Positions 7,864-63,280 of a DNA stretch of 64,000 nt are shown here, one piece after another. Origin of the DNA: an uncultured Bacteroidales bacterium (GTDB lineage: Bacteria; Bacteroidota; Bacteroidia; Bacteroidales; Paludibacteraceae); the NCBI GenBank assembly GCA_902779705.1, contig CACZCR010000011.1:1-64000 (forward strand), read 5' to 3'. The notes beneath the pieces were generated by a model that saw only the letters and a program-made list of their open reading frames with translations, was not told where the DNA came from and searched no databases. Made by a program: the position numbers and the translations under genes. The first letter of the stretch is position 1. Each line of letters starts with the position of its first letter.

Positions 7864-7919
7864 ATGGCCAAATGATTAAATGAACAAATAAATCTTAAAT
7901 CGTCAAATCGTAAATTATT
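7864..7919 (+). repeat. reiterated-word tract between two operon genes
   Basis: From the transporter stop to the next start the DNA is built from AAATG-A/CAAATG-like words and then AAATCGT/AAATCGTAAA words with 7-9 bp periods. Stop trinucleotides occur in every frame. Confidence 0.7.
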
Positions 7920-8546
7920 ATGAATATAAACAACAAATTCATCATCACGATTAATCGTGAGTTAGGAAGCGGCGGTCGCACAGTAGGTCGCAAGTTAGCC
8001 GAGAAATTAGGCGTTGAGTACTTCGACAAGGCCGTCATCAACGCCTTGCAGGAGCGCTACAACCTGTCCGTGGAGCAGATAGAGCACCTCAAAGGGCAAG
8101 ACACCGGTTGGTGGGCAGAGTTCAAACGTAAGATGACGTTCTCGGAGGCTGAGTACGAACTCAACCAAACGAACATCGAGACCGAGGATATGTTCCGCGC
8201 AGAGACACAGGTGTTGAAGGCCTTGGCCAAAGAGCAGTCGTGTGTCATTGCCGGTCGTACGGCTTGCTATGTCTTCCGTGAGCACCCCAATCACCTGTCT
8301 ATCTTCATTCAGGCATCGATGCTGAGCCGCATGGATCGTGTGGCACGTGAGCAGAACATGTCCAAAGAGGAAGCACGCATGACGATCGAGAAGGTGGATA
8401 AGATGCGTGAGAACTACGTACAGGAGTTCACCGGCACTTCGCGTTACGACACCCGCAACTATCAGTTGGTTCTCAACATGGACGAAATAAACGAGGACGC
8501 GGCCGTTGACCTCATCCTCGCTTATATCCGTAGTATGGCTGTTTAG
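7920..8546 (+). CDS. cytidylate kinase-like nucleotide kinase
   Basis: 208 residues. The N-terminus FIITINRELGSGGRTVGRKLA holds a P-loop variant typical of the cytidylate-kinase-2 family, followed by GVEYFDKAVI. This family binds ATP and probably phosphorylates a nucleoside monophosphate or related small molecule; it is distinct from housekeeping Cmk, and its true substrate is not established. A C-terminal helical region (DRVAREQNMSKEEARMTIEKVD) corresponds to the lid, with Arg residues that would contact phosphate. The end overlaps the convergent glycosyltransferase by 4 bp. Confidence 0.82.
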   Translation: MNINNKFIITINRELGSGGRTVGRKLAEKLGVEYFDKAVINALQERYNLSVEQIEHLKGQDTGWWAEFKRKMTFSEAEYELNQTNIETEDMFRAETQVLKALAKEQSCVIAGRTACYVFREHPNHLSIFIQASMLSRMDRVAREQNMSKEEARMTIEKVDKMRENYVQEFTGTSRYDTRNYQLVLNMDEINEDAAVDLILAYIRSMAV

Positions 8547-9742
8547 GCAGCAGATGTATAGTGTCGTTTGGTGCGCTTGGGCGCTGAGATGGCCTTGCGG
8601 AACACCTCTATAAGTGCTTTGGCACAACGTCTGATGTCATACCGCTCCATCGATTTGGCATAGCGGAAACCTGTCTCCCAACGCTCTTTGGGGTGATCGA
8701 GCCAGTAGTCGATACGCTCGGCTAGTGCTTTGGCGTCACCTGCAGGGAACGTGCTACGTTCGTCTAAGGCGTAGGTGGCCGTACCGGAATAGCGTGCTGT
8801 TGCTATCACAGGCACAACAGCCTGCTGCAACGCTTCGGTGATACTCATTCCCTCTACTTCGACATAGGCACAGTGAACAGCCAAGTCAGCCTTAGCGGCC
8901 AACTCACGCAGCTGGTCGCGGTTGTAGAATCCCACAACGGGTTTATATCCTACTACGCCATCTTCATATAGTTTCTCGGCCATGCGGGTGTATTCGGCCA
9001 GTTTTGGTCCACGACCTGCTATGTGGAGCCGGATACGCTTAGCGTACTTGCTTAGGCGGATAGCTTGGTATAGGGTAGGCTGATCTTTCTCGATAGCGGT
9101 ACGACCGATATAGATGACGTCCAACGGGCGGTTCTCGTCCAAGTAGTTGTCCGGCGGAAGGACAGGACGGATACAGCGGTCCGGTATGACGCCGTTAGAC
9201 AGCGTGAAGCACTCCGCCTTAACATGATGGCGCTCCAGGCGTTCGCGCACATTGTCCGTAGGACATTGCAGGTACTTGTAGTTGTCGTAGAACACGCGAC
9301 ACCAGTAACGGTACAGTATCTGACAAATCAGGTAACCGCCTTTGTGGCCCAGACAGTTGTACACAATGTTCTCCGGGTGAACGTGGTAGGTGCCGGTGAT
9401 AGGCTTGCCCAGTTTTTTGGCCCAGTTCATAGCTGCGTGGTGCAGAAAGAACGTCTCCTCCAGGTGCACTACATCAGCCCAACGTACGGCTTCTTCTACC
9501 ACCGGACCATGCCAGTCGGCATACGCATAGCCGAAGGAGTCCAATATAGGCTGCATCAGCGGAAAATGGAATTTCTTCATCTCATACTCCGGCTTCGGAC
9601 CATTCGGGTCTTCCAGATTAGGGCCGGACAACACACGCACTTCCTCACCTGCTGCACGCAAGGCTGCAACGGTACGTCTTGCTGATTCGTCAAGGCCATT
9701 ACCTTGACTGAAAAAGTTATTGACTACAAATAGGATCTTCAT
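8543..9742 (-). CDS. glycosyltransferase family 4 (GT-B fold)
   Basis: 399 residues. MKILFVVNNF with an early GNGLDES loop begins the N-terminal Rossmann domain that holds the acceptor. The C-terminal domain has DVIYIGRTAIEKDQPTL, the donor-binding ELAAKADLAVHCAYVE and the EGMSITEALQQAVVPVIAT segment, the E-x7-E-like nucleotide-sugar site of GT4 enzymes. It resembles transferases that glycosylate diacylglycerol or cell-surface glycans; acceptor and sugar are unknown. It has its own promoter at 9785-9816 and stands alone as a single-gene unit, convergent with the kinase-like gene. Confidence 0.85.
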   Translation of the reverse strand: MKILFVVNNFFSQGNGLDESARRTVAALRAAGEEVRVLSGPNLEDPNGPKPEYEMKKFHFPLMQPILDSFGYAYADWHGPVVEEAVRWADVVHLEETFFLHHAAMNWAKKLGKPITGTYHVHPENIVYNCLGHKGGYLICQILYRYWCRVFYDNYKYLQCPTDNVRERLERHHVKAECFTLSNGVIPDRCIRPVLPPDNYLDENRPLDVIYIGRTAIEKDQPTLYQAIRLSKYAKRIRLHIAGRGPKLAEYTRMAEKLYEDGVVGYKPVVGFYNRDQLRELAAKADLAVHCAYVEVEGMSITEALQQAVVPVIATARYSGTATYALDERSTFPAGDAKALAERIDYWLDHPKERWETGFRYAKSMERYDIRRCAKALIEVFRKAISAPKRTKRHYTSAA

Positions 9743-9784
9743 ATTCTTAGCTATTAATTGATGTTATTCTAATCGTTACGACTG

Positions 9785-9816
9785 CAAAAGTACTGCTTTT
9801 TGATGATATATACAAA
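9785..9816 (-). promoter_or_regulatory. promoter of the GT4 gene
   Basis: Minus strand: TTTG (9813-9816), 20 bp, TACTTTTG (9785-9792). The -33 box runs into TATATATCATCAAA. Confidence 0.78.
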
Positions 9817-9906
9817 TTGTTCATATCAATCGTAAATAAAATACTAAAATAAAGCCAAAAATATGAGGAATTGTGTATTTTATCTTAAGAATAGGATATT
9901 ATAGCA

Positions 9907-9942
9907 AATAAAGAACGCACGTGTGTACGCGCGTTCTTTATT
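9907..9942 (-). terminator. terminator of the nqr operon
   Basis: A 12 bp stem, AATAAAGAACGC with GCGTTCTTTATT, encloses a 12 nt loop. It follows nqrF and could act in both directions. Confidence 0.75.
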
Positions 9943-9989
9943 ATACTAGGCGACTAGGAAACTAGGAGCCTAGGAATCTAGGGGGCTAG
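9943..9989 (-). repeat. CTAG-word tract after nqrF
   Basis: CTAG plus four variable bases repeats about six times at an 8 bp period between the nqrF stop and the terminator. Because 8 is not a multiple of 3, TAG falls in all three frames. Confidence 0.7.
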
Positions 9990-11210
9990 TTAGCCGCCGA
10001 AGTTATCAAAGCGGATATCGGCATCGTCTACACCGAGCGAGTGGAGGAGATCCAATACCGTCTTGGCCATCATAGGAGGTCCGCAGAGGTAGTACTCGAC
10101 ATCCTCGGGAGCATCATGCTGCTTGAGGTAGGTGTCGCCCATGACCGGAGCGATGAAGCCCGGGGTGTACTTGATACCCAGTTGGTCTGCCTTCGGGTCC
10201 GGACGATCCAGCGCGAGGTGGAAATGGAAGTTTGGGAACTCCTTCTCCAGCGCGAGGAAATCGTCGAGGAAGAAGACTTCGTCGATCGCACGTGCGCCGT
10301 AGAAATAGTGCATCTCGCGGTCGCGGCAGTTGCGGGTCTTCAACATGTGCATGATCTGCGCACGCAGCGGAGCCATACCGGCACCACCACCGACCCAGAT
10401 CATCTCCTTCTTGCTGTCGTAAACAGGACGGAACTCGCCGTAAGGACCGCTCATGCGCACTTTGTCGCCCGGTTTGAGCGAGAAGATATACGTGGAAGCG
10501 ATACCGCAGGGTACATCCATGAACTCAGGACCATTCGGGCACTGCTCTTTCGGTTTGAACGGCGGCGTCGCGATACGCACGGTAAGCGTAATGATATCGC
10601 CCTCGTCCGGGTAGTTAGCCATGGAGTACGCACGTACCGTTGCCTGGGTGTTCTTCTGTTTGAGTTTGAACAGCCCGAACTTCTGCCATGCCGGCAGGTA
10701 GAGGTCGCCGATGAGCGACTTATCCATGTCGCGGTCGTAGTCGATATCGTACTCAGGGATGATGATCTGTGCGTACGAACCCGGTTCGAAGTTCATGTGC
10801 TCGCCCGGAGGCAGCCATTCCTTAACGCCGAGTACGGACTCGTCGATCTTGAGCTCGAGGTCTTCTTTGACTTTGACTTGGCAACCCAGACGCCATCCTT
10901 CTTTCTGCTGCTTGCGCGAGAAATGAACGGTTTCGGTCGGCAGGATCTCTCCGCCTCCGCTGAGTACCTGGCACTTACATTGTCCGCAGCTACCCTTACC
11001 ACCACAAGCGGAGGGCAGGTGCACACCTGCTTCGCCGAGTTGAGCAAGCAGCGAACCACCGGCTGCTACGTCGTACTCTTTGTCACCATTGATGGTCACT
11101 TTGACGTTGCCGGACGATACAAGATATTTCTTAGCCACCAACAGGATGATGACCAACAGGAGTATTACTACGAGGAATACTGCTACTGCTAATAAAATAG
11201 ATCTTAACAT
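9990..11210 (-). CDS. nqrF: Na+-translocating NADH:quinone reductase subunit F
   Basis: 406 residues; the NADH-oxidising, electron-entry subunit. An N-terminal TM anchor (about 3-25) is followed by a plant-type 2Fe-2S domain with ligands in CGGKGSCGQCKC and a later Cys in LGCQV. The FAD domain has RAYSMANYP; the NADH domain has GGGAGMAPLRAQI and YYLCGPPMM; it ends DNFGG as in other NqrF proteins. Electrons pass from NADH through FAD and the 2Fe-2S centre to the membrane subunits. Last gene of the minus-strand operon, 15 bp after nqrE. Confidence 0.97.
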   Translation of the reverse strand: MLRSILLAVAVFLVVILLLVIILLVAKKYLVSSGNVKVTINGDKEYDVAAGGSLLAQLGEAGVHLPSACGGKGSCGQCKCQVLSGGGEILPTETVHFSRKQQKEGWRLGCQVKVKEDLELKIDESVLGVKEWLPPGEHMNFEPGSYAQIIIPEYDIDYDRDMDKSLIGDLYLPAWQKFGLFKLKQKNTQATVRAYSMANYPDEGDIITLTVRIATPPFKPKEQCPNGPEFMDVPCGIASTYIFSLKPGDKVRMSGPYGEFRPVYDSKKEMIWVGGGAGMAPLRAQIMHMLKTRNCRDREMHYFYGARAIDEVFFLDDFLALEKEFPNFHFHLALDRPDPKADQLGIKYTPGFIAPVMGDTYLKQHDAPEDVEYYLCGPPMMAKTVLDLLHSLGVDDADIRFDNFGG

Positions 11211-12453: not shown

Positions 12454-13117
12454 GGTCTTCCTCCTTTCCTTCATTCGTTAATTCTTTCATTCCTTCATCC
12501 AGGAACTCTTTATACTCATCACAGAGGTTTGCCTTGAGCATATCACTCACGCCGGTGGAGGTGATGGTAGCGCCGCTTACGGCATCTACCTGGTCTTCAC
12601 CGTTCTCTGCCTGATTGCCTTTCTTGAGCACTACTACGCTCACAATCTCATTCTCAGCATTGCGGATATGCTTGCCGATGAACTGGCTGCGGAAGGGCTC
12701 CTCTACGATGAGGGCACCCAGACCCGGAGTCTCGGACTCGTGGTTGAAGTTGATGCCGAAGATGGTGTTCTTGTCCTCATCGAGGGCGATGTATCCACCG
12801 ATACCGCCCCACAGACCGGCACCATGCAGACGCAGCACATATTTGGTTGCGCCATCCACTTCGAAGCGGAAGATACCCGGCTTGGCGTTCTCTTTGTCGA
12901 TCGTGTCACGCACGAGGCTCTCGTAGAGGGCTGCTGGATCAGCACCCAGCTCTTGGTTGAGCGCTACAAGCATTTGCTTCTGCTGGTCAAGCTTGACGTT
13001 AGCTGCCTGACGCGGCGAGAGCACTTGGCTCACGAGCGCCAAAAGGACAGCCACGATGATGACCACGATAGTTGCATATACGATGGTATATACATTGCTG
13101 TTGGTATTCAGTTTCAT
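12434..13117 (-). CDS. nqrC: Na+-translocating NADH:quinone reductase subunit C
   Basis: 227 residues. One N-terminal TM helix (about 9-31) and a periplasmic FMN-binding domain. The covalent FMN attachment site is the second Thr of SGATITS in DAVSGATITSTGV, the phosphoester-threonyl-FMN motif installed by ApbE. A charged tail rich in Glu/Asp follows. Sits between nqrB (11 bp gap) and nqrD (20 bp overlap). No apbE gene lies in this window. Confidence 0.96.
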   Translation of the reverse strand: MKLNTNSNVYTIVYATIVVIIVAVLLALVSQVLSPRQAANVKLDQQKQMLVALNQELGADPAALYESLVRDTIDKENAKPGIFRFEVDGATKYVLRLHGAGLWGGIGGYIALDEDKNTIFGINFNHESETPGLGALIVEEPFRSQFIGKHIRNAENEIVSVVVLKKGNQAENGEDQVDAVSGATITSTGVSDMLKANLCDEYKEFLDEGMKELTNEGKEEDHVESED

Positions 13118-25622: not shown

Positions 25623-25662
25623 TTTCTCTAATCCACTAACCCTTAATCCACTAATCCCTCTT
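25623..25662 (-). repeat. CTAATCC/CTAACCC word tract spanning a stop codon
   Basis: Words CTAATCCA, CTAACCCTTAATCCA and CTAATCCC repeat at 7-8 bp. The tract straddles the stop of the RNR-domain gene, so the last coding residues GLVD and a second in-frame GLVD after the stop come from two copies. Confidence 0.7.
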
Positions 25663-26134: not shown

Positions 26135-26160
26135 AAATTCTTAATTCTTAATTTTGAATT
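26135..26160 (-). repeat. AATTCTT-word tract before the RNR-domain gene
   Basis: AATTCTTAATTCTTAATTTT words fill the gap and cover the thioesterase stop codon. The same words recur at 26862-26887 before the thioesterase start. Confidence 0.65.
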
Positions 26161-26861
26161 GTTATCTTCGCCGAGCAACTGGTCTCGTCGTATCTGTTCT
26201 TTTGTTGGTATTGTACACCATCTTCGCTTACCAGATAATAGGTCTGCAACTCGTCGCCCATCATCGCCTCTTTCGAGTAGTTGATATCCAGCCTTACTTT
26301 CTTGCCATAGTACGCCGGCAGATAGGCGTCTGTCATCGCTTGCAGATAGCGGCAACTGTTACAATGACCGTTATAATCGATATCCGAATAGACTATCTTG
26401 TGCTTGGCGCAGCCTGTCGGTTCGGGAATAGTGGTCATCCTTATGCGCGACATCTCTATCACCTCGCCATCTACGCAGCCTTCAAACATCGGATCGTCAA
26501 AGATGTTCACTATCTCGCGTTTTTTTAGGTCCAGTACCGCCCACACACTCTTGCATTGGCCGATCAGTCTGTCACCCGAGTAGATCCTGAAATCACGCGT
26601 ACTCAGCATATGTGCGTTGGACTCAATCCAGGTCTCAAACCGCACCTTCTGACAATGCGTCGGCAGCTCATACATCTCTACACTCAGCCGAGTCAGTATC
26701 CATGTCAACCCGATAGGGTGCAACGTGGCAATACCAAAACCCAGCTCGTCTGCCACAGTCCCGGCTATTTCCAGCAGGTAGTTCTCCAGGTTAAACAGCC
26801 TCAATCTCTTCTGCCCATCTACCTCCTGGTACTTGATCTCATATTCGTAAGAATATTTCAC
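26148..26861 (-). CDS. acyl-ACP thioesterase
   Basis: 237 residues, double hot-dog fold. It hydrolyses acyl-ACP to free fatty acid. The first hot-dog has GLTWILTRLSVEMYELP; the second holds the active-site DIDYNGHCNSCRY, matching the N-x-H motif of plant FatA/FatB-type and bacterial homologues, with a nearby acidic residue. With the two acyl-CoA ligases in this window it could form a fatty-acid release/re-activation loop. Preceded by an AATTTTTAATT-word tract and followed by the RNR-domain gene. Confidence 0.86.
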   Translation of the reverse strand: MKYSYEYEIKYQEVDGQKRLRLFNLENYLLEIAGTVADELGFGIATLHPIGLTWILTRLSVEMYELPTHCQKVRFETWIESNAHMLSTRDFRIYSGDRLIGQCKSVWAVLDLKKREIVNIFDDPMFEGCVDGEVIEMSRIRMTTIPEPTGCAKHKIVYSDIDYNGHCNSCRYLQAMTDAYLPAYYGKKVRLDINYSKEAMMGDELQTYYLVSEDGVQYQQKNRYDETSCSAKITIQN

Positions 26862-26887
26862 AATAATTTTTAATTCTTAATTTTTAA

Positions 26888-29053
26888 TTACTTCAACCAC
26901 TGATCCAGCCATCCTCTAAACTCACGTTGCCACAATATACCGTTCTGCGGCTTCAATACCCAATGGTTCTCATCTGGGAAAATCAGCAGTTTGGCCGGTA
27001 CCCCACGCATCTTAGCGGCATCAAAAGCAGCCATCGCTTGGTTAGCCAATATACGGTAGTCCTTCTCGCCGTGGATGCACAGGATAGGGGTGTCCCACTT
27101 GTCCACAAACTTATGCGGACTATTGGCAAACGTACGCTGAGCGACAGCATTATCCTTCTCCCAGTACGCGCCACCCATATCCCAGTTGGCAAACCATTTC
27201 TCCTCAGTCTCCAGATACTGCATCTCCAAGTTGAAGATACCATCATGCGCAATGAAGGCTTTGAATCGTCCGTCGTGATGTCCGGCTATCCAATAGACGC
27301 TAAAGCCGCCAAACGACGCACCTACGCAGCCCAGATGGTCCTTGTCTACATATGGCTCGTTGCAGAACTCATCAATAGCCGAGAAATAGTCCTTCATACA
27401 TTGTCCGCCGTAGTCACCGCTGATCTCTTCGTTCCACTCTTTGCCAAAGCCCGGCAGACCGCGACGATTAGGCGCTACAATGATATAGTCACCCGCCGAC
27501 ATCATCATAAAGTTCCAACGGTACGACCAAAACTGGCTCACCGGACTCTGCGGACCGCCCTCGCAATAGAGGATGGTCGGATATTTCTTCTTGGGGTCAA
27601 ACTTAGGCGGATAGATCACCCAAGTCAACATCTTTTTGCCGTCCGATGTCTTCTGCCAACGCGGCTCCACCGTACTCAGTTCGATCTGGTCATAGATATT
27701 TTTGTTCTCGTTGGTCAAACGCTCCAATGGCTGGTATTCGGCTACCGACGCCAAACCGGCCGCTACATCCAGTCGATAGATATCATTCGGTTCGCGCATC
27801 GAGTGCTTGAGCACGTACGCATATTTGTCACATACATCGCCCAGACTGACATCAAACTGACCTTCGGTCAACTTAGCTGCCGAACCGTCCAAACCGATAG
27901 CCCACAAGTGGATCGTGCCTTGGATAACAGCTGTGCCAAGTAGGGTAGAATCATTATACCACGCATACTCATCGATATTGGTATCCATCACCTCGCTTAA
28001 CCAGCGTTGCTCACCGGTCTTCAGGTTCTTGACCATCAACCTGTTCTCGTCGCTCTCATAGCCGTCCCGCTCCATCGACAGCCAAGCTATCCATTCGCCG
28101 TTAGGCGAGTAGCTCGGATTGATATCGTAACCCTTGTTTTCTTCGGTCAGATTGCGTTCTTCCGTAACCTGTAACCCCTCACCCGTAACCGTTACCAGAT
28201 AGATATCACTATTTGTGCTCACCGCATACTCCAAGCCGGTCTTCTTGCGGCAAGTGTAGGCTATCTCTTCGTTATTCGGATTCCAAGCCAGCTGCTCAAT
28301 GCCGCCAAACGGTTTCATCGGGCTCTCATAAGCTGTGCCTTCCAACAGGTTGACACCTTCGCCCATCTTGGCCGATTTAACCCGAACGCCGCGGCCGTAC
28401 TTGACCTCCAGCGGGCAGACAAAAGGCTGAGGAGCGGTCTCGGTCCATTCGTCCCAATGCTTATACATCAGGTCTTCATGCGTATGTCCCGTTGCCAACG
28501 GCAGATCCGGATACTTGTCCGCGGTCGTCTCTACGGTCTTCACCTGCTTGATCACGATCACCTTATCGCGCTTAGGCGAGATTAGAAATCCTTCGATATC
28601 CTCATTCTCACCCTTCACCTTGACGTCGTCTCCGTCTTGACGCAGACACAACTTGCCATCGCGCAGATAAGCCAGCGTGCCGCTATTGCCAAACCATGCC
28701 GGATCACTACCTACAAACTCGTCCAGCAACTCGCCGTTGAGCATCCCGTCTTCAGTCTGGCCTTCGCCGAACGGATTGACGATACGGATCCAAGTCGTTG
28801 AGCGGTTCTGCTCTACGCTATAGTAACTCACCGTATAAGCGATCCAGCCGGTCTCAATGTCGCTCACTACGCTGCCGATACGACCCATTGCCCACAAAGC
28901 CTCCGGAGTCAACCGGCCGCCTTCAATCTTGATCTGAGGCTTCTCAATAGGATTCTTGCTCTCAGCTTTCGCCTTTTTGCTTTCGACTTTACCACTGCAT
29001 CCTGCTCCCAACAGAGTGATTGCTGCCATAATAATAGGTATAATTTTTTTCAT
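26888..29053 (-). CDS. S9 family prolyl-oligopeptidase-type lipoprotein, DPP5-like
   Basis: 721 residues from ATG 29051-29053. The lipobox LLGAGC makes it a lipoprotein (Cys about residue 19). Residues about 40-450 are a beta-propeller; about 460-721 the alpha/beta hydrolase with Ser580 in GASFGG, Asp665 in GEKDYR and His697 in DENHW. It releases dipeptides in the periplasm, as the Porphyromonas DPP5 does. In the propeller, TVTGEGLQVTEER is encoded by a TAACCCGTAACC-type repeat in antisense (28157-28197). A longer upstream frame runs through the promoter and is rejected. Confidence 0.9.
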   Translation of the reverse strand: MKKIIPIIMAAITLLGAGCSGKVESKKAKAESKNPIEKPQIKIEGGRLTPEALWAMGRIGSVVSDIETGWIAYTVSYYSVEQNRSTTWIRIVNPFGEGQTEDGMLNGELLDEFVGSDPAWFGNSGTLAYLRDGKLCLRQDGDDVKVKGENEDIEGFLISPKRDKVIVIKQVKTVETTADKYPDLPLATGHTHEDLMYKHWDEWTETAPQPFVCPLEVKYGRGVRVKSAKMGEGVNLLEGTAYESPMKPFGGIEQLAWNPNNEEIAYTCRKKTGLEYAVSTNSDIYLVTVTGEGLQVTEERNLTEENKGYDINPSYSPNGEWIAWLSMERDGYESDENRLMVKNLKTGEQRWLSEVMDTNIDEYAWYNDSTLLGTAVIQGTIHLWAIGLDGSAAKLTEGQFDVSLGDVCDKYAYVLKHSMREPNDIYRLDVAAGLASVAEYQPLERLTNENKNIYDQIELSTVEPRWQKTSDGKKMLTWVIYPPKFDPKKKYPTILYCEGGPQSPVSQFWSYRWNFMMMSAGDYIIVAPNRRGLPGFGKEWNEEISGDYGGQCMKDYFSAIDEFCNEPYVDKDHLGCVGASFGGFSVYWIAGHHDGRFKAFIAHDGIFNLEMQYLETEEKWFANWDMGGAYWEKDNAVAQRTFANSPHKFVDKWDTPILCIHGEKDYRILANQAMAAFDAAKMRGVPAKLLIFPDENHWVLKPQNGILWQREFRGWLDQWLK

Positions 29054-30106: not shown

Positions 30107-30489
30107 TGGAAACAAAAGCCAAAGTCATCGCTTGGAGCAGCACAATCACTGTGCTGGCAGTTGCGTTGTTCATCTTCTTTAAGTTCTGCTTTGTCTATTC
30201 CGAAGGCGTCAACGAAGGAGATATCAACTATTTCCAAAAAGAGGGATTCATTTTCAAGACCTACGAGGGTAAGATGATCCAGTCCGGCCTCAAGTCCAAG
30301 CCGGCACAGGGAGCCGTTCAGTCCAACGAGTTTAAATTCTCGGTGGACAACGAGCGTGTGGCACAACAGATCATGGAGAATCCCAACACCAACGTCAAAC
30401 TGCACTGGCATCGCTACCTCGGCACGCTGCCTTGGCGCGGTAACAGCCAGTTTGTGGTGGACTCCATCTATACGGTGCCCAACAAATAA
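30106..30489 (+). CDS. conserved single-TM protein of unknown function
   Basis: 127 residues, TAATG overlap with ddh. One N-terminal TM helix (about 9-30), then a soluble domain with KEGFIFKTYEGKMIQSGL and KLHWHRYLGTLPWRG. I recall similar proteins in Bacteroidales but no function. The topology suggests a periplasmic domain. Confidence 0.75.
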   Translation: METKAKVIAWSSTITVLAVALFIFFKFCFVYSEGVNEGDINYFQKEGFIFKTYEGKMIQSGLKSKPAQGAVQSNEFKFSVDNERVAQQIMENPNTNVKLHWHRYLGTLPWRGNSQFVVDSIYTVPNK

Positions 30490-30526
30490 ATCGTAAATCG
30501 TCAATCAATCGTAAATCGTAAATAGT
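30490..30526 (+). repeat. AATCGTAAATCGTCAAT word tract
   Basis: From stop codon to next start the gap is made of ATCGTAA/ATCGTCA words at 7-8 bp. Confidence 0.75.
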
Positions 30527-32203
30527 ATGATGAACGAAGAAAAATACAATTTTGTCAAGATGTTCGAGCGTTCGTTCCGCGAGAACTGGGACCTCGAAGC
30601 TGTTAGCGACTGGGGAACGAATGTCACCTTGACCTATGGCCAGCTGGCCATCAACATCGAGAAGCTGCATATACTCTTCAAAGAGTGCGGCATCAAAAAG
30701 GACGACAAGATTGCCGTTATGGGTAAGAACAATAGCAATTGGATTGCTGTCTATCTGGCTACGATCACTTATGGTGCGATCATCGTGCCGATCCTGCAGG
30801 ATTTCCGTGCGAACGATGCGATTCACATCATCAACCACTCGGGTTCGAAGTTGCTCTTCATCAGCGATATCAATTGGGAGGGTATTGAGTTGGATCAGAT
30901 CCCGCATGTGTTGGCATCCGTCAGCCTCAATGACTGGCACCCGATCTCATTGGCCTTAGACCCGAAGAAGATCAACTACGATGCGATTCAGGCAAAGTTT
31001 AAAGCGAAACATCCGGACGGCTATTGGGCAAAGGATGTGCATTTCGACGACCGCCCCAACAGCGAGATAGGTTCGATTAACTATACCTCCGGAACGACCG
31101 GTTTCAGCAAAGGCGTCATCATGCCGCTGAACGGTTTGGCCGGCAATGTGCGTTTCGGTATTGAGTCGGGTTTGGCTTTCAAGGGCGCGCGCTTCGTGAC
31201 CTTCCTGCCTTTGGCGCACGCGTACGGATGCGCGTTCGACTTCCTGTCCTGCCTCGCAGCCGGTGGTCATACCTGGTTGGTAGGCCGTACGCCGTCGCCG
31301 AAGATCTTGCTCAAGGCCTTCTCGGAAGTGAAGCCGACGCTGATCCTCTCTGTGCCGCTGATCCTCGAGAAGATATACAAGAAGATGATTGTTCCGCAGA
31401 TCCAGAAGCCGCCCGTTAGTTGGGTACTCAAAGTGCCGTTCCTGGATTCGGTGGTATGCTCGAAGATCCGCGAACAGCTCGTTCAGGCTTTCGGAGGCGA
31501 GTTCCGTCAGATCATCATCGGCGGTGCGCCGCTCAACCCGGAAGTGGAGGCGTTCCTCTACCGCATCAAGTTCCCCGTGTCGGTGGGCTACGGTATGACG
31601 GAGTGCGCGCCGCTGATCGCCTTCACGCCGTACGACTGCGGCAGTAAACCGTATTCCTGCGGTAAACCGCTGCCTGGCATCATGGAGGTGAAGATCGTTA
31701 ACCCGAATGCGGAAGGAGTAGGTGAGGTAGTCGTTCGCGGCGAGAACACCATGACCGGATACTACAAGAACGCGCAGGCAACCAAAGAGAGCTTTACTTC
31801 CGACGGATGGCTCCGTACAGGTGACCTCGGTATGCTCGACGAGGACGGATTCCTCTATATCAAGGGCCGCTGCAAGACGATGTTGCTCGGTCCGAGCGGA
31901 CAGAATATCTACCCGGAGGAGATAGAGGCCAAACTCAATAACATGCCGTATGTACTCGAGTCGCTCGTGCTGCAACACGAAGACAACCGCCTGGTAGCGC
32001 TTATCTGTCCGGACTATAACGAGGTGGACGCCAGCGATATGTCTCGCGAGCAGCTCGACCAGTATATGGAGGACGCACGCAAACAGGTCAATGCCGAACT
32101 GGCAGCCTATGAGCAGATAGCAGTCGTCAAACTCTATCCGCATGAGTTTGAGAAGACTCCTAAGAAATCTATCAAACGATTCCTATATACCAATATGGTC
32201 TGA
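30527..32203 (+). CDS. AMP-forming long-chain acyl-CoA ligase (second copy)
   Basis: 558 residues; ATGATG start. Motifs as in its paralogue at 15997: YTSGTTGFSKGV, GYGMTECAPL, GWLRTGDLG, SGQNIYPEEIE, and the C-terminal Lys in TPKKSIKRF. Compared with the first copy it has a slightly longer N-terminus and differs around the fatty-acid pocket, so the two may prefer different chain lengths. TGATG overlap with coaX shows coupled translation. Confidence 0.9.
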   Translation: MMNEEKYNFVKMFERSFRENWDLEAVSDWGTNVTLTYGQLAINIEKLHILFKECGIKKDDKIAVMGKNNSNWIAVYLATITYGAIIVPILQDFRANDAIHIINHSGSKLLFISDINWEGIELDQIPHVLASVSLNDWHPISLALDPKKINYDAIQAKFKAKHPDGYWAKDVHFDDRPNSEIGSINYTSGTTGFSKGVIMPLNGLAGNVRFGIESGLAFKGARFVTFLPLAHAYGCAFDFLSCLAAGGHTWLVGRTPSPKILLKAFSEVKPTLILSVPLILEKIYKKMIVPQIQKPPVSWVLKVPFLDSVVCSKIREQLVQAFGGEFRQIIIGGAPLNPEVEAFLYRIKFPVSVGYGMTECAPLIAFTPYDCGSKPYSCGKPLPGIMEVKIVNPNAEGVGEVVVRGENTMTGYYKNAQATKESFTSDGWLRTGDLGMLDEDGFLYIKGRCKTMLLGPSGQNIYPEEIEAKLNNMPYVLESLVLQHEDNRLVALICPDYNEVDASDMSREQLDQYMEDARKQVNAELAAYEQIAVVKLYPHEFEKTPKKSIKRFLYTNMV

Positions 32204-34242: not shown

Positions 34243-34339
34243 TGGCACGATAATTGCAAATCGTCAATTAACTAAATCGTCAATCAATCGTAAATCGTCA
34301 ATTGTCCAATTGTCAATTAATAAAATAAATTATAAAATT
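34243..34339 (+). repeat. long AATCGTCAAT/CAATTGTC word tract
   Basis: Almost 100 bp from the barrel gene stop to the TPR gene start, made of AATCGTCAATTAA, AATCGTCAATC and CAATTGTC words. No promoter of the usual type seen. Confidence 0.75.
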
Positions 34340-35746
34340 ATGAAACTCAGATCCTTATTAATCATTGCTTTGGCAGCTGCAGTTCCTGCAATGGCTTGCG
34401 CTAAGAAGCCGAAGAAATCCAAAGAGCCGGTTGAGCCGGTAGTGGTGAATCCTTATCTTGTTCCTGAAGCTGAGTGCGAGGACTATTTCTCCTTGGAGCA
34501 CGAGAGCTTGAAGAACAAAGACTACGAGACCGCTTACGAGCAATGGATGACCGTTTATACATCCTGCCCGGGTATCCAGCGTCAGCTCTATACCGATGGT
34601 GCACGTATCATGGAGGCACTCTACAAGCGTGCCAAAGCGGAGGGTAACGAGCAGGAGATGATCCGCATCGCTAACCAGATCATGGACATGTATGACAAGC
34701 GAATGCAGTATTTCGGTGACGACGAGCGTTATCCGATCTCCTACATCCTCTCGACCAAGGCTGTTGATTATAAGACCTACTTCGAGGGCACTGAGGCATA
34801 TAGCCGCGACACTGTCTATGCATGGTTGCACGAGGCTATGAAGCACGACCAGGCTTCACCGTTCTTGACGGCTTTGGAGATGCTGTTCAATATGTCCTAT
34901 GAGAACTACCAAGCTGACAAGACCAACCAGGAGAAAGCAGACCTCTTCGTCGAGGACTATAACAACGTATTGGTAGGTCTGGCTATCTTGGTCGATGATA
35001 CGACTTATGCTAACCGTGAGTTGGCCGGTCAGAAGAAAGACTGGTACGACCAACAGTTCGCTCAATCGGGTGTAGCTGACTGCTCTAAGCTCGACGAGCT
35101 CTATGGCAAAGTGGTAGAGGAGAACAAGAACGACTATTCGATCCTGCGTCGTCTGGCTGCTCTGTATCGTCAGATGGACTGTGAGGAGTCGCCTGTCTAC
35201 TTGGCAGCAGTGGCTCAGATGAAAGCCCTGCGTCCTACCGAGTCTTACGGTTCGGGTTCGGCAGGTTTGGCTAAGAAGTGCCTCAAGAACAAAGACTACT
35301 CGGGCGCTATCGCTAACTTCAACAAGGCCCTCTCTGAGACCTCTTCTGCTTCAGACAAGGCTGACTATCTCTACCTGATCGCACAGTGCTACTATGCATC
35401 TAAGAGCTATCAGAACGCAGCCAACTATGCTAAGCAGTCGCTGGGCGTTAAGCCGGGTCAAGGACGTTGCTACATGCTGATCGGTAACTGCTACGCAACT
35501 GCTAAGCCTTATCCGGGCAACACCGCTAAGGACAAGATCCTGAACAAGACCGTCTTCTGGGCAGCATGTGATATGTTTGAGCGCGCTAAGGCCGATCCTT
35601 CGACGGCTGGTAAGGCTGCATCAGCTATCGCTACCTACAGCAAGTACTTCCCGACCAAAGAGGAGCGCTTCGACCTGCCGAAGGAGTTCAAGGGTTCGAC
35701 CTTCTATGTAGGCGGCTGGGTGAACGTTACGACACGTATCCGCTAA
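34340..35746 (+). CDS. exported tetratricopeptide-repeat protein
   Basis: 468 residues from ATG 34340; ten earlier codons come from the repeat tract. Signal peptide about 1-22 ending AMACAKK; the Cys could be lipidated. TPR-like helices occur at about 50-115 (LKNKDYETAYEQWMTVY) and 320-400 (CLKNKDYSGAIANFNKAL, YASKSYQNAANYAKQSL). Likely a periplasmic protein-interaction platform between the barrel protein and LptC. Confidence 0.8.
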   Translation: MKLRSLLIIALAAAVPAMACAKKPKKSKEPVEPVVVNPYLVPEAECEDYFSLEHESLKNKDYETAYEQWMTVYTSCPGIQRQLYTDGARIMEALYKRAKAEGNEQEMIRIANQIMDMYDKRMQYFGDDERYPISYILSTKAVDYKTYFEGTEAYSRDTVYAWLHEAMKHDQASPFLTALEMLFNMSYENYQADKTNQEKADLFVEDYNNVLVGLAILVDDTTYANRELAGQKKDWYDQQFAQSGVADCSKLDELYGKVVEENKNDYSILRRLAALYRQMDCEESPVYLAAVAQMKALRPTESYGSGSAGLAKKCLKNKDYSGAIANFNKALSETSSASDKADYLYLIAQCYYASKSYQNAANYAKQSLGVKPGQGRCYMLIGNCYATAKPYPGNTAKDKILNKTVFWAACDMFERAKADPSTAGKAASAIATYSKYFPTKEERFDLPKEFKGSTFYVGGWVNVTTRIR

Positions 35747-36325: not shown

Positions 36326-36394
36326 TGTTATTGACAATTGTACAAGTGACAATTAGACAAGTGATTGTATTATTGTACAATTGATTGAATTATT
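36326..36394 (+). repeat. GACAATTGTACAAGTGA word tract
   Basis: Words GACAATT, GTACAAGTG, GACAATTAGACAAGTG and ATTGATTGAATTATT fill the gap before the four-helix-bundle gene. Confidence 0.75.
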
Positions 36395-36769: not shown

Positions 36770-36943
36770 ATCGTCAATTAAATTAAATCGTAAATCAATC
36801 GTAAATCGTCAATCGTCAAATCGTCAATATAAATGACAATTGGACAAGTGACGATTGGACAATTGATTGAATTATTGAACAATTGAACAATTATAAAAAT
36901 CGTAAATAAATCGTAAATCGTCAATCGTCAAATCGTCAATTAT
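36770..36943 (+). repeat. 174 bp composite word tract before fabG
   Basis: Starts as AATCGTCAATT words, changes to GACAATTGGACAAGTGACGATTGGACAATT words, then back to AATCGTAAATCG words up to the fabG ATG. The middle ~55 bp matches the tract upstream of aspA (47345-47412, other strand). Confidence 0.82.
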
Positions 36944-45836: not shown

Positions 45837-45855
45837 CCTCCATCTTGTATATACG

Positions 45856-45887
45856 AAAAATGGCTGCCCCACGGCAGCCATTTTTTG
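45856..45887 (+). terminator. terminator between convergent genes
   Basis: 13 bp stem AAAAATGGCTGCC / GGCAGCCATTTTT with loop CCAC; works for both directions (also aspA). Confidence 0.88.
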
Positions 45888-45920
45888 TACCACTAATCCA
45901 CTAATCGGTAACCCGTCCCC

Positions 45921-47306: not shown

Positions 47307-47428
47307 AGTATAATTGTGTTGTTTATTGACAATTTTACGATTTACAATTTACGATTTATTGACGAGTTTTATAATTGTTCAATTGTTCAATAATTCAATC
47401 AATTGTCCAATCGTCACTTGTCCAATCG
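47307..47428 (-). repeat. word tract between ftsY and aspA
   Basis: Read on the minus strand: GACGATTGGACAAGTGACGATTGGACAATTGATTG-type words, then ATCGTAAATTG words to the aspA ATG. About 55 bp coincide with the tract before fabG. Confidence 0.8.
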
Positions 47429-57569: not shown

Positions 57570-57603
57570 TTGATCCAGTCGACCAGTTAACCAGTAGACC
57601 ATT
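57570..57603 (+). repeat. GACCAGT-word tract
   Basis: ATCCAGTCGACCAGTTAACCA and AGTAGACCATT: CCAGT words at 8 bp, with TAA and TAG, fill the gap from stop to next start. Confidence 0.7.
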
Positions 57604-58044: not shown

Positions 58045-58091
58045 TTCATAGTAAAAAAGGGTTTAAGTTTAGGTAGAATTGATTAATGGAG

Positions 58092-58123
58092 CAGGCTTCG
58101 TTGTGAAACGAGGCCTGTTTTTT
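58092..58123 (+). terminator. terminator of the lysis-like unit
   Basis: CAGGC-TCGTT stem with AACGA-GCCTG, loop GTGA, then six T. Confidence 0.85.
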
Positions 58124-58137
58124 AATAATTTCTTATT

Positions 58138-58224
58138 AAAATTTGCATATGTCAGATTTTTTTCGTAACTTTGCAGCGATTTTGAGATAATATGCCTCCG
58201 GAGGCTCTCCGGTGCAGCGAAATT
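58138..58224 (+). repeat. right copy of the 88 bp promoter-leader inverted repeat
   Basis: Contains promoter, GCAGCGATTTTGA and the GCCTCCGGAGGCTCTCCGG leader. Inverted match to 48404-48491. Confidence 0.85.
58142..58173 (+). promoter_or_regulatory. promoter of the RelA/SpoT-like gene
   Basis: TTTG (58142-58145), 20 bp, TAACTTTG (58166-58173). Same sequence as the ftsY promoter. Confidence 0.85.
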
Positions 58225-60283: not shown

Positions 60284-60284
60284 G

Positions 60285-60719
60285 ATGGACAATGTAATCA
60301 AAAAACTGAACTGGATCTACTATAGCCAGATGCTGATCACCTGCATCGTGTGGGGCGCGATGACCTATGCCTATTCACACGGCCTGTACCAACCGCTGGA
60401 TATCCTCTCGCCGATGGGTACAACTGTACAATATATACTGATCATCGATGCGTTGATCACTATTCCGCTGGGCTTGTACCTGATCAAGTGGCTCAAGCCG
60501 CAGACCAATGAGCGCTACTTTAAACTGGCCGGAGCACGGATACTGATGGTGAGCAACACGATGCCACTGGGTGTGTTCGCTTTCTACTGGCTGGGAGGCT
60601 ATAGATCGATGATATGGCTGGCCGCTATCGGCGCTATAGGATGGTATTTCACCAAACCGACACGGGGCAAGATGGAGCAGGAGATGACTCCGGAGGACCC
60701 TAATGTGCCGACGTATTAA
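60285..60719 (+). CDS. conserved membrane protein of unknown function
   Basis: 144 residues with four TM segments (about 8-28, 44-64, 82-102, 106-124). No motif recognised. Co-transcribed with recR by spacing (1 bp). The C-terminus (MEQEMTPEDPN) is acidic and cytoplasmic by charge rule. Confidence 0.72.
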   Translation: MDNVIKKLNWIYYSQMLITCIVWGAMTYAYSHGLYQPLDILSPMGTTVQYILIIDALITIPLGLYLIKWLKPQTNERYFKLAGARILMVSNTMPLGVFAFYWLGGYRSMIWLAAIGAIGWYFTKPTRGKMEQEMTPEDPNVPTY

Positions 60720-60747
60720 ATCGTAAATCGTAAAATCCTCAATCATA
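60720..60747 (+). repeat. AATCGTAAATCGTAAAATC word tract
   Basis: ATCGTAA words from stop to next start. Confidence 0.7.
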
Positions 60748-61176
60748 ATGATAATAGCTTGTGACTTTGATGGTACGATCGTGACCCACGAGTACCCGAA
60801 AATCGGCAAACCGATACCGTTTGCTATCCAGACCCTGAAGAAACTGCAAGAGGAGGACCATCATCAGATCATCCTCTGGACGGTGCGTGAAGGGGAACTG
60901 CTGCAAGAGGCTGTGGACTACTGCAAGTCCAAAGGACTGGAGTTCTATGCTGTCAACTCCAACTATCCCGAGGAAGAACCTGCTCATCGTCCGGCCCGTA
61001 AGCTGGTGGCAGACCTGTGGATAGACGACCGTAATCTGGGCGGACTGCCCGACTGGGGAATCATCTACAACATGATTCACACCGGCAACATGTATAAACC
61101 TGCTCCGCAGGGTAACATGGAGGACCTGCAACAGCACCGTCATAAGAAAGGACTGTTTGAACGCCTCTTCGGCTAA
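60748..61176 (+). CDS. HAD-superfamily phosphatase, BT0820-like
   Basis: 142 residues. ACDFDGTIV (Asp nucleophile and acid/base) at residues 4-12; LWTVREGE for motif II; Lys in ARKLVADLWIDDRN; motif IV Asp pair in WIDDRNLGG. Small HAD without a large cap, like BT0820 of B. thetaiotaomicron. Substrate unknown. Confidence 0.82.
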   Translation: MIIACDFDGTIVTHEYPKIGKPIPFAIQTLKKLQEEDHHQIILWTVREGELLQEAVDYCKSKGLEFYAVNSNYPEEEPAHRPARKLVADLWIDDRNLGGLPDWGIIYNMIHTGNMYKPAPQGNMEDLQQHRHKKGLFERLFG

Positions 61177-61223
61177 CCCATAACCCATAACCCATAACCC
61201 ATAACCCATAACCCACTAACCCG
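61174..61223 (+). repeat. TAACCCA heptamer array
   Basis: Six TAACCCA units at exactly 7 bp plus a CTAACCCG end. The first TAA is the stop codon of the HAD gene; the last unit abuts the GNAT ATG. Seven is not a multiple of three, so TAA falls in all frames. Confidence 0.9.
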
Positions 61224-61736
61224 ATGCTGACACTACGCAAACTCGAGCCCTCGGACCTGCCGTACCTGTATCAATGGGAGAACGATGCGGCAATGTGGAG
61301 TGATGCGGACACCCACAACCCGCTCTCACAGCAAGACCTGCGCGACTATATCGGCTCCACGACCGGCGACCTCTACCGTGACGGTCAACTGCGTCTCGTC
61401 ATCGAACAGCAGACCGAGACCGAGCGGATGACCATCGGCTGTGTGGACCTGTTTGACCTGGATGTACGTAACCGCAAAGCTGCCATCGGGCTGTATATAG
61501 CGCCTGCGTATCGCGGTCAAGGACTGGGACGACAGACCGTAGAAGAGTTGGAGAAGTATGCGTTCGGGTTCTTGCAACTAAGGTTGCTATACGCCATCAT
61601 CGCCACCCGCAACGAGGCTAGCTCGGCACTCTATCTGGCAGCAGGATACACGCCTTCGTCCGTGTTAAGCCACTGGACGATCGAGTCGGACGCTATACTA
61701 TGGTGGAAAACCAATCCGCAAGAAATGCAAAAATAA
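61224..61736 (+). CDS. GNAT N-acetyltransferase
   Basis: 170 residues. Motif A of GNATs, IGLYIAPAYRGQGLGRQTVEEL (about 92-113), binds acetyl-CoA; LLYAIIATRNEASSALYLAAGYTPS is motif B. Resembles RimJ/RimL-type enzymes acting on amino groups; substrate unknown. No promoter; translated from the recR transcript. Confidence 0.86.
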   Translation: MLTLRKLEPSDLPYLYQWENDAAMWSDADTHNPLSQQDLRDYIGSTTGDLYRDGQLRLVIEQQTETERMTIGCVDLFDLDVRNRKAAIGLYIAPAYRGQGLGRQTVEELEKYAFGFLQLRLLYAIIATRNEASSALYLAAGYTPSSVLSHWTIESDAILWWKTNPQEMQK

Positions 61737-61754: not shown

Positions 61755-61786
61755 TTTGCATATATGCAAAATTATTACTAACTTTG
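61755..61786 (+). promoter_or_regulatory. pdxJ promoter
   Basis: TTTG (61755-61758), 20 bp, TAACTTTG (61779-61786). Perfect 16 bp palindrome TTTGCATATATGCAAA at 61755-61770. Confidence 0.85.
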
Positions 61787-61805
61787 CACCCGTTAAAGAA
61801 TAAAC

Positions 61806-61833
61806 GCCACCGGAGGCTCTCCGGTTGCAGTCG
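61806..61833 (+). promoter_or_regulatory. CCGGAG-GCT-CTCCGG leader stem-loop before pdxJ
   Basis: GCCACCGGAGGCTCTCCGG then TTGCAGTCG: third copy of the leader element also found before ftsY (48404-48435) and the RSH gene (58194-58224). Confidence 0.8.
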
Positions 61834-61850
61834 ATAAAGAATAAAGCACT

Positions 61851-62567
61851 ATGACAAGGTTAAGCGTTAATATCAACAAAGTGGCAACGCTGCGTAACTC
61901 ACGCGGAGGCAAGTTGCCCGATGTAGAACTGTTTGCTCAGGACTGTGAGCGCTTTGGTGCGCAGGGTATAACGGTTCATCCGCGTCCGGACGAGCGCCAT
62001 ATACGCCGTGAGGATGTGTATGAGTTGAAGCGCCTGGTCAAGACCGAGTTTAACATCGAGGGCAACCCGACCGAGGAGTTCTTGGCGCTGGTGGCGGACA
62101 TCCGTCCTACGCAGGTGACCTTGGTGCCAGACGATCCCAACCAGCTGACCAGTAACCACGGATGGGACGTGGCTAAGCACCTGAACGAGCTCAAAGGCAT
62201 CGTCAACCAGCTGCACGCCAGTCGTATCAGAGTGAGCATCTTTGTTGATCCGGATCCGCTGATGGTAGAGTATGCCAAGACGACCGGCGCTGACCGCATA
62301 GAGCTTTATACCGGCCCTTATGCCGAGATCTATGAACAGGACCCGCAGCGTGCAATCGATAAGTATCGTCCGGCTGCAGAGAAAGCCCACGAACTGGGAC
62401 TGGGCATGAACGCCGGCCACGATCTGAACCTGCTGAACCTGCGTGCATTTGTAGCCGCTTTTCCCTGGACGGCAGAAGTGAGCATCGGTCACGCCCTGAT
62501 AGCCGACGCCTTGTATATGGGCATTGAGCGCACCATCAATGAGTATCGTAAACAATTAGAATTCTAA
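61851..62567 (+). CDS. pdxJ: pyridoxine 5'-phosphate synthase
   Basis: 238 residues. Condenses 3-amino-1-hydroxyacetone phosphate with deoxyxylulose 5-phosphate to pyridoxine phosphate, the precursor of [43 protein letters not shown] and AGHDLNLLN are family motifs. The leader element it shares with ftsY and the RSH gene suggests common post-transcriptional control. Confidence 0.95.
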
Positions 62568-62571
62568 ATAT

Positions 62572-63240
62572 ATGATTTTCTTACAAGCAACAACGGCTGC
62601 CGAGACAGTCGTAACCAAATCAATCAACCTGTGGACAATGGCGCAATACGGCGGCTGGATCATGATCATTCTGGCCCTGCTGTTCTTAGGCGCAGTGTAT
62701 ATCTTCATCGAGCGTATGGTGGTGATCAAGGCTGCTACGCAAGAGGACAAGACTTTTATGAACCGTATTCGTGACTATATCCACGAGGGCAAGATCGATT
62801 CGGCTATCAAGCTCTGTCAGCAGACCAACACACCTTCGGCTCGAATGGTAGAGAAGGGTATCACCCGTATTGGCCGTCCGATGCAGGATGTACAGGTAGC
62901 TATCGAGAACGTAGGTGACCTGGAGGTCAGCAAGCTGGAGAAAGGCCTGGTATTGATGGCTACAATCGCCGGTGGTGCTCCGATGTTGGGTTTCCTCGGT
63001 ACGGTGCTGGGTATGGTGCAGACCTTCTTTGAAATGGCCAACAAAGCCGGCGGCTCGATCGACATGACCACCTTGTCAACCGGTATGTATCAGGCCATGG
63101 TGACCACTATCGGCGGTCTGATAGTAGGTATCATCGCGATGTTTGCTTACAACCTGCTGGTAGCACGTATCGACCATGTGGTACGTCGTCTCGAGTCCCG
63201 TACGATGGAGTTTATGGACGTGCTGAACGATCCCTCCTAA
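62572..63240 (+). CDS. exbB: ExbB/TolQ-type proton channel
   Basis: 222 residues. Three TM segments (about 26-46, 123-143, 165-190) with GLVLMATIAGGAPMLGFLGTVLGMV and MVTTIGGLIVGIIAMFAYN, the pore helices. With ExbD it couples proton-motive force to TonB. Four bases after pdxJ, followed by exbD after a word tract. Confidence 0.92.
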   Translation: MIFLQATTAAETVVTKSINLWTMAQYGGWIMIILALLFLGAVYIFIERMVVIKAATQEDKTFMNRIRDYIHEGKIDSAIKLCQQTNTPSARMVEKGITRIGRPMQDVQVAIENVGDLEVSKLEKGLVLMATIAGGAPMLGFLGTVLGMVQTFFEMANKAGGSIDMTTLSTGMYQAMVTTIGGLIVGIIAMFAYNLLVARIDHVVRRLESRTMEFMDVLNDPS

Positions 63241-63280
63241 AAAATCGTAAATTGTCAATCGTCCAATCGTCAATAGCTTT
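63241..63280 (+). repeat. ATCGTAAATTGTCAATCGTCC word tract
   Basis: ATCGTAA, GTCAATC and GTCCAATC words from stop to next start. Confidence 0.7.

Follow-up and report, generated by a model that had tools for sequence, protein, structure and literature searches.

Junctions between adjoining genes in one uncultured genus of Paludibacteraceae carry a large excess of short tandem words. The DNA considered here, referred to as the window, is the whole 64,000-nucleotide stretch (bases 1-64000 of contig C11) from a genome of 1.82 Mb in 16 contigs (98.4% complete), and a number of its intergenic gaps hold tracts of words repeated mainly every 7 or 8 nucleotides (nt). The phenomenon is real, genus-specific and striking; the tracts are a many-word, genome-dialect form of the bacterial intergenic heptanucleotide repeats. 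With a probability of roughly 0.6, they are dispersed simple-sequence filler, spread by ectopic copying between tracts, altered by slippage in 7- and 8-nt steps, and filtered by selection.

In the proposed mechanism, a short stretch of an existing tract would be copied into a new place, by template switching or by gene conversion between tracts. Slippage during replication would subsequently alter the tract's length and wording in steps of 7 and 8 nt, and selection would set where tracts survive, namely between the stop and start codons of adjoining genes and within loops of proteins. A tract that has replaced the end of the upstream gene has to provide the stop codon of that gene and keep the following start site accessible, which probably gives an advantage in gaps to orientations that place stops in the direction of reading. 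Inside a gene, a tract would persist only if its frame is free of stops and its length is a multiple of three. We infer that ectopic copying is the spreading step and that selection chooses the survival sites.

Abundance, vocabulary and turnover of the tracts

The window's genome was sampled over 461 kb (the window plus 20 stretches totalling 397 kb, 25% of the genome), with genes called by our own script rather than a standard caller (381 genes, 91.7% coding). In the short same-direction gaps, which total 10.6 kb, Tandem Repeats Finder (TRF) at a score of at least 36 returned 59 arrays, against a shuffle mean of 2.4; at a score of at least 50 there were 18 arrays, and shuffles gave 0. The other gaps held 18 arrays where long and same-direction (1.8 in shuffles), 2 where convergent (0.4) and 7 where divergent (0.6), and 422 kb of coding sequence held 87 arrays against 13 in shuffles (score at least 36 throughout). 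A long array with a period of 10 nt and a TRF score of 320 lies within a 960-nt divergent gap of the same genome (L013:9859-10150).

Relatives were found through the conserved protein encoded at window positions 60748-61176 (the anchor), which led to 80 loci in rumen and gut Paludibacteraceae genomes (Bacteroidales). Seventy-two of them (L074-L145, 1.25 Mb) share at least 77% identity in the anchor protein and are taken to belong to the same genus; all 72 represent one genomic region, and 685 of their 1042 same-direction junctions repeat 17 orthologous ones. L146-L153 form an outgroup counted apart from these; their short same-direction gaps (2.8 kb) hold 5 arrays and their coding sequence holds 6. 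A comparison set covers 16 loci from other genera of the family and 17 from other families of the order, each of at most 20 kb, after loci shorter than 10 kb (3/19 for the family, 2/19 for the order) had been dropped.

Counted per junction (7/8-nt arrays at a TRF score of at least 40), tracts favour genes that run in the same direction. In the window's genome, 37 of 300 same-direction junctions, drawn from 13 of the 16 contigs, hold an array, against 1/30 convergent and 1/30 divergent ones (P=0.04 for the two pooled). Across the 72 loci the figures are 178/1042 for same-direction, 9/123 for convergent (Fisher P=0.004) and 3/100 for divergent junctions (P=4e-5), and tracts are present in 76 of the 171 same-direction gaps that measure 31-60 nt. 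Arrays per 100 kb number 547 in the short same-direction gaps of these loci and 8.6 in their coding sequence. The enrichment in co-directional gaps that was proposed as a check on the original prediction is thus present, and intergenic DNA is not equally filled. The identical pipeline finds only 3/181 same-direction junctions with an array in other genera of the family and 3/188 in other families of the order (37/300 versus 6/369 outside the genus, P=1e-8). The tract excess in this one genus is seven- to ten-fold.

The arrays are dominated by a heptameric period. Outside genes, 278 arrays in the 72 loci have periods of 7 (165), 11 (48), 8 (43), 9 (9), 10 (7), 12 (4) and 6 (2) nt, and tandem 7-nt units occur far above chance and chiefly between genes, as in bacterial intergenic heptanucleotide repeats. 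Period 11 ranks second there; slippage steps go beyond 7 and 8. Among 98 coding arrays the periods are 7 (35), 8 (23), 12 (21), 9 (13), 11 (5) and 6 (1). The original prediction took periods not divisible by three as a means of closing every reading frame; 58 of the 98 coding arrays have a period of 7 or 8 as well, so closure of frames does not account for the period. Multiples of three would be expected to prevail in coding sequence; that 7 and 8 are nonetheless the commonest suggests that the period stems from whatever process generates the arrays.

The vocabulary is wide and unevenly shared. The 341 arrays with a full unit reduce to 131 distinct canonical units, and the window's genome alone uses several different words. 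Within a genome, 107 of 709 tract pairs (15.1%, the window's genome excluded) share a word, compared with 2.7% (maximum 4.2%) in 20 runs of column shuffles that preserve composition and period; between genomes the figure is 2277/56315 pairs (4.0%), compared with 1.6% (maximum 1.75%). A limited dictionary is therefore shown: words recur at unrelated gaps and inside proteins, and each genome prefers its own dialect.

Individual tracts are not kept over evolution. Around the anchor gene, the readable orthologous gaps of 29 same-genus loci are taken up by another tract, by unrelated sequence or by no more than a few bases, or the genes overlap. Over the 17 orthologous same-direction junctions a tract is present in 138 of 685 instances; at the single most varied junction, 24 of the 51 genomes carry tracts, built of 22 different words. 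Among the 547 tract-free instances, 251 measure at most 8 nt, overlaps counted in. Comparison of related genomes thus confirms that tracts recur at same-direction junctions of the genus, but not that a tract is retained at orthologous gaps, and the idea that a given gap needs its tract is not supported.

Close pairs of genomes reveal the steps of change. In 14 pairs and 153 junctions, the differences noted, which come from among the junctions listed, include unit-sized length changes of -16 nt (L129/L131), -15 and -7 nt (L094/L145), +7 nt (L090/L098) and +8 nt (L076/L077). L090 and L098, 96% identical, also use different words at one gap, and L076 and L077, 91% identical, differ by the presence of a tract. 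The suggestion that tracts are maintained by slippage or copying gains from these unit-sized differences, as it does from the copied block described below. In L145, a hairpin-like element of about 58 bp (CCGGAGCGTCTTCCCGACGG...AAAGGTTTT) stands within AATCACC tracts in two gaps; it is missing from L094, which is 97.7% identical.

Copying has its direct evidence in a dispersed block of about 105 bp (GACAATTGGACAAGTGACGATTGG...AAATCGTAAAT), which fills eight gaps of the window's genome. Seven copies measure 102-112 bp with 89-100% identity, and one measures 57 bp; all eight (8/8) are oriented with the genes, and their alignments end at most about 12 bp from the gap edges. The neighbouring genes encode unlike domains, among them 23S rRNA-intervening-sequence (IVP) protein and SDR, FtsY-like and lyase, RelA/SpoT, HD, MscS, RimP and NusA, and NusA and IF-2 (the rimP-nusA and nusA-infB gaps). 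RimP, IF-2, SRP54-type and the other domain names are Pfam assignments; the NusA and FtsY labels are what we take these genes to be from sequence and position. The rimP-nusA gap is 115 nt long here and at most 42 nt in 22 of 28 readable relatives, in a comparison where not every start codon could be placed. In 18 other same-genus genomes, none of the matches listed spans more than 80 of the block's 112 bases. Aligned by eye, the eight copies have ragged ends without fixed termini and are composed of 7/8-nt words. Two copies have the AATAATTGAAAAATTGG variant in common, and such common variants suggest that the block may have been copied serially from copy to copy.

Other dispersed sequences were noted. 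A repeat of about 196 bp, 92% identical and inverted between two long gaps, lies at L020:14451-14930 and L020:9556-9939, and also at window positions 58045-58224. A filler of 142-149 bp, whose end GCCAGCAGCG(A/T) abuts the ATG, occupies the gap ahead of the anchor gene in L087 (about 9858-10000) and is found also in L026, L028 and L031; it is not in L138, where one base separates stop from start, and it has no Rfam match in L087. Curated RNA families gave 0 matches in the window, L008, L020, L087 and L145.

Similar arrays are found inside genes, where a number of them behave as inserts. Of 47 coding arrays, 12 with fewer than 5 orthologs were dropped; 15 of the 35 evaluable ones are missing from at least half of their orthologs, against 3.6% of control segments. 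One loop of a GH43 enzyme is built of GGGTTAC units here, of CAATTTA in L052 and of a CTTTCA-type word in L055, and holds nothing in L056-L058. A loop of a GNAT acetyltransferase (gene at 61224-61736 of the window) is short (18-27 nt) in 25 of the 58 orthologs and longer (33-102 nt) in the other 33, and L119 and L126, 94% identical, have 42 and 18 nt, respectively. In many of the long-loop orthologs it contains in-frame words, including CTCTAAC, CAATCACC/CAATGACC, AAATGGT, CTTTCAA, AGCAATC, CCCGTAAC and the 16-nt CAGCGAAGCGGTCTGT; empty loops, judged by eye, are unlike the words that fill the loop elsewhere. A 16-nt CAGCGAAGCGGTC-type word occurs both in coding sequence of the window's genome (L009:18713-18776 and L016:4414-4478) and in the GNAT loop of L080, L087, L107 and L139.

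Stop codons, orientation and a possible role in translation

Orientation was assessed in 215 tracts from short same-direction gaps (the 461-kb sample plus the 72 loci). The typical tract starts at the upstream stop codon and runs almost to the next start codon, the median offsets being -1 nt and 5 nt, respectively. Stops per 10 nt number 1.08 in the gene direction, 0.65 in reverse and 0.82 in letter shuffles; forward stops outnumber reverse ones in 132 of the tracts and the opposite is true in 49, with 32 genomes leaning forward, 9 reverse and 13 tied. All three frames are closed in 128 tracts read forward and in 71 read in reverse, and 25 tracts have no forward stop at all, so the claim that a stop appears nearly always once per unit was too strong.

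A-richness as the sole source of this bias is insufficient, given a forward:reverse lean of 38:19 in T-rich tracts. TGA and TCA counts show no asymmetry in non-tract gaps (457/463) and a marked one in tracts (312/165); together with the bias in T-rich tracts, this makes it likely that tract orientation is under selection. Forward stops per tract (3.89) exceed column shuffles (3.46, P=0.007), and reverse stops fall below them (2.33 versus 2.68, P=3e-4). Where the tract overlaps the upstream stop the lean is 73:24; in tracts 0-5 nt from the stop codon it is 24:14, which is not significant (P=0.14). The upstream stop codon belongs to the tract word in six of the eight block-bearing gaps, and stop-codon supply accounts for part of the orientation bias.

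Alternatively, as the original prediction proposed, the tracts might be selected for a function in translation, either stopping it in all frames or serving as unstructured linkers for reinitiation. This is consistent with the preference for same-direction junctions, with the excess of forward stops over column shuffles, which is seen also away from the stop codon (35:11), and with the weaker folding near the start. Tracts alone fold slightly less stably than their column shuffles (-1.75 versus -1.95 kcal/mol, P=0.03). Set against these points are the 547 of 685 orthologous gap instances that have no tract, the 864 of 1042 same-direction junctions in the genus that are tract-free, the 25 of 215 tracts that offer no forward stop, and the occurrence of like tracts in coding sequence. 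Selection for stopping or linking as the reason for the tracts is accordingly unlikely, and copying is better supported than a translation function, although the tracts may possibly function in translation.

Candidate routes of spread

Purely local birth, in which slippage from a chance seed creates each tract at its site with no copying between loci, would explain the unit-sized length changes between close pairs. It would also fit the work cited in parts of two earlier reports, according to which 7 nt is the most frequent size among the longer repeat units of many bacteria (PMC4679880, PMC4692102). The approximately 105-bp block at eight gaps, the within-genome word sharing far in excess of column shuffles and the empty GNAT loops that do not resemble the filling words all speak against this reading, and local birth alone is as improbable as a selected translational signal.

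That a dedicated mobile element or enzyme is the writer of the words has a smaller chance still of being correct; examples would be a reverse transcriptase of the telomerase type, a transposase of the Y1/REP kind or an end-joining pathway that makes templated insertions. The genus-specific excess suggests a factor gained or lost, and DRT10 reverse transcriptases, in the part of the source consulted, synthesise tandem-repeat DNA (PMC12632851). The block copies lack fixed ends, however, and RVT_1, Ku and Y1_Tnp, the three families searched, have no match at E<=0.001 in the window's genome. A telomerase-like enzyme was rejected on RVT_1 (PF00078), for which the window's genome was the sole one searched; end joining was rejected on Ku, which is present in 1 of 99 order genomes; and a REP/Y1 transposase was rejected on PF01797, which is present in 26 of 41 family genomes and in 1 of 2 other same-genus genomes searched.

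An assembly or gene-calling artefact, conceivable in that nearly all genomes compared are metagenome assemblies and genes come from our own script, is scarcely credible, because tracts occur in many separately assembled genomes from several projects, inserts keep the reading frame, and arrays are rare in shuffles and in other genera passed through the identical pipeline.

Loss of a repair function was likewise considered and set aside. MutS is present in the window's genome and in 30 of 31 genomes searched, which speaks against loss of mismatch repair. In Escherichia coli, certain exonucleases limit tandem-repeat growth. RecJ is present in 37 of 37 genomes (35 above the cut-off), and the large subunit of ExoVII is present in the window's genome and in 34/37 and 41/41 genomes searched. 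In this genus and much of the family, the Exonuc_VII_L profile matches that subunit in two pieces with the middle missing, as if shortened; a change in ExoVII was dropped as the cause because the two-piece match is equally seen in many genera of the family that have few tracts.

Several observations weigh against ectopic copying followed by slippage and selection. Copying is deduced from its products, no event having been observed, and no copying machinery was identified in the window's genome among the families searched (RVT_1, Ku and Y1_Tnp). The GNAT loop of the window (33 nt) has no clear array, nor do some longer ortholog loops, and the dialect signal in this loop is weak (within-genome match 11/33, permuted mean 6.9, P=0.049). 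The forward-stop lean that persists more than 5 nt from the stop codon shows that stop supply alone is insufficient. Finally, tract plus start region folds at -5.2 kcal/mol, versus -6.2 kcal/mol with the tract reversed (P=0.01, 166 tracts), and such weaker folding is what a translational role predicts.

A bolder statement of the copying mechanism is offered tentatively and may well prove too strong. The genus would copy tiny tandem words from place to place across the whole genome, with no transposase or reverse transcriptase of a recognised type taking part; species-own dictionaries would be written into operon junctions, those of the most highly conserved genes (rimP-nusA-infB) included, and into in-frame enzyme loops, and gaps would be rewritten faster than the surrounding genes change.

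Tracts of the window and related repeat systems

At or near the 14 gaps originally listed, TRF finds arrays with units of 7-9 nt, and also of 11 and 14-20 nt (Table 1). Compared with their own dinucleotide shuffles, 11 of the 14 reach P<=0.02 (7864, 9943, 26135, 26862, 30490, 34243, 36770, 47307, 60720, 61174 and 63241), so short-word repeats do fill most of them; 25623 reaches P=0.03, while 36326 and 57570 are not significant by lag score. By the same shuffles, 14 of the window's 40 gaps of at least 20 nt reach P<0.02. That tracts run from a stop codon to the next start agrees with the medians given above but fails in places: the 9943 tract lies about 200 nt ahead of the next gene, that at 25623 stands between convergent genes, and that at 57570 is in a gap which our gene finder called divergent. 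Closure of every frame was not upheld, at least one frame being without a gene-direction stop within the gap at 26135, 34243, 60720 and 63241. The IVP protein gene (36395-36769) is flanked by two tract-filled gaps. Positions 54642-54721 hold a perfect 42-bp repeat (1.9 copies) of 21-bp CGTCCAAAATGGACGCCAAAC-like units.

Table 1. Short-word tracts and in-frame arrays located in the window
Feature	Positions	Strand	Basis
AAATGG/AAATCGT-type 7-8-nt words, full stop-to-start gap	7864..7919	+	TRF; P=0.007
CCTAGNNN 8-nt array, stop codon to terminator-like hairpin, no start codon adjoining	9944..9982	-	TRF; shuffles
CTAATCCA 8-nt array, convergent gap, terminator-like hairpin adjoining	25628..25659	.	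TRF; P=0.03
AATTCTT (AAGAATT) array, 13-nt same-direction junction; adjoining start predicted GTG	26135..26164	-	TRF; shuffles
AATTTTT/AATTCTT array, whole of 26-nt same-direction gap	26862..26889	-	TRF; shuffles
TAAATCG array, stop codon to next ATG	30487..30527	+	TRF; shuffles
AAATCGTCAATC/CAATTGTC words, gap of 99 nt	34258..34345	+	TRF; shuffles
GACAATTG-type 8-nt words, gap of 69 nt	36326..36394	+	TRF; lag score P=0.11, not significant
AAATCGT words and dispersed-block copy (36837-36941), gap of 174 nt	36770..36943	+	TRF; alignment; shuffles
Dispersed block (47325-47426), gap between FtsY-like gene and fumarase/aspartase-family gene	47307..47428	-	alignment; shuffles
CCAGTAGA 8-nt words directly ahead of ATG; upstream gene uncertain	57575..57603	+	TRF; P=0.12, not significant
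TAAATCG array, stop codon to next ATG	60717..60748	+	TRF; shuffles
TAACCCA array, 7 copies, stop codon to 2 nt short of ATG	61174..61222	+	TRF; shuffles
AATCGT/CAATCGTC words, whole of 40-nt gap	63241..63280	+	TRF; P=0.02
CCACTAAT 8-nt words, convergent gap 45837-45920, not in the original list	45890..45906	.	TRF; P=0.01
AATTAAA-type 7-nt array, in frame, GH43 gene (355-1911)	906..942	-	
GGGTTAC 7-nt array, in frame, GH43 gene loop; other words or no insert in relatives	1488..1518	-	
GGTTACG 7-nt array, in frame, close to end of GDSL lipase gene (2100-3929)	3815..3841	+	TRF
GAATGAAA-type 8-nt array, in frame, close to end of FMN-binding gene	12458..12498	-	TRF
GNAT acetyltransferase loop; insert site in relatives, own copy 33 nt	61404..61436	+	

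Several known systems resemble the tracts in part. STRR heptamers and long simple sequence repeats of cyanobacteria and other bacteria comprise several heptanucleotide words per genome and are intergenic (also cited in PMC4679880 and PMC4692102); as far as their descriptions go, they are without the dialects, copied blocks and in-frame loop inserts found here. REP/MITE and Rickettsia palindromic elements are dispersed short gap sequences, the Rickettsia element also occurring in frame within genes. They are palindromes or have inverted ends, whereas the block copies have no fixed ends and consist of 7/8-nt words.

The closest likeness is to the TAACTGA heptamer direct repeats of Beggiatoaceae, Cyanobacteria and five Bacteroidetes, which are mostly intergenic (MacGregor 2015, PMC4679880). 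In the portions of that report used here, they close every forward frame with stops a short way ahead of start codons and in some cases extend over the upstream stop codon, and other heptamers are noted in Gramella, Aequorivita and Elizabethkingia (PMC4679880). The original prediction knew of no named element of this kind; all-frame-stop heptamer repeats upstream of start codons have in fact been in print since 2015. The present tracts share with TAACTGA repeats the tandem 7-nt units and the mostly intergenic position; as to forward orientation near the next start codon with stops in every frame, they lie a median of 5 nt from the start, with three frames closed in 128/215 and no forward stop in 25/215. 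As described in those portions, TAACTGA repeats use one word, related heptamers being rarely repeated in that genome, in contrast to 131 units in 341 arrays here, and the genome dialects, word changes at orthologous gaps and in-frame protein-loop inserts are further differences.

In Xanthomonas and Nostoc, the G-rich heptamers GGGAATC and GGGGA(T/C)T are abundant, intergenic and variable in length and sequence between close relatives, and slippage has been proposed for them (Rehm et al. 2015, PMC4692102). According to the parts of that article drawn on, they follow one G-rich consensus able to form quadruplexes, whereas many words, mostly A+T-rich, are used here. Surveys cited in portions of both articles report overrepresented heptamers and propose polymerase slippage (PMC4679880, PMC4692102). 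DRT10, in the part of its description consulted, likewise yields short tandem-repeat DNA in bacteria, but this synthesis depends on a reverse transcriptase (PMC12632851), and the window's genome is without RVT_1. The literature search did not find the many-word, dialect, gap-and-loop and block-copy features described.

One family of simple words thus fills operon junctions and protein loops, and what fills them is rewritten from one close species to the next. Two questions become testable: why bacteria favour heptamers, and how new linkers and protein loops arise. A striking all-frame-stop gap sequence may reflect a mutational process filtered by selection rather than a dedicated signal, and calls for caution in this respect.

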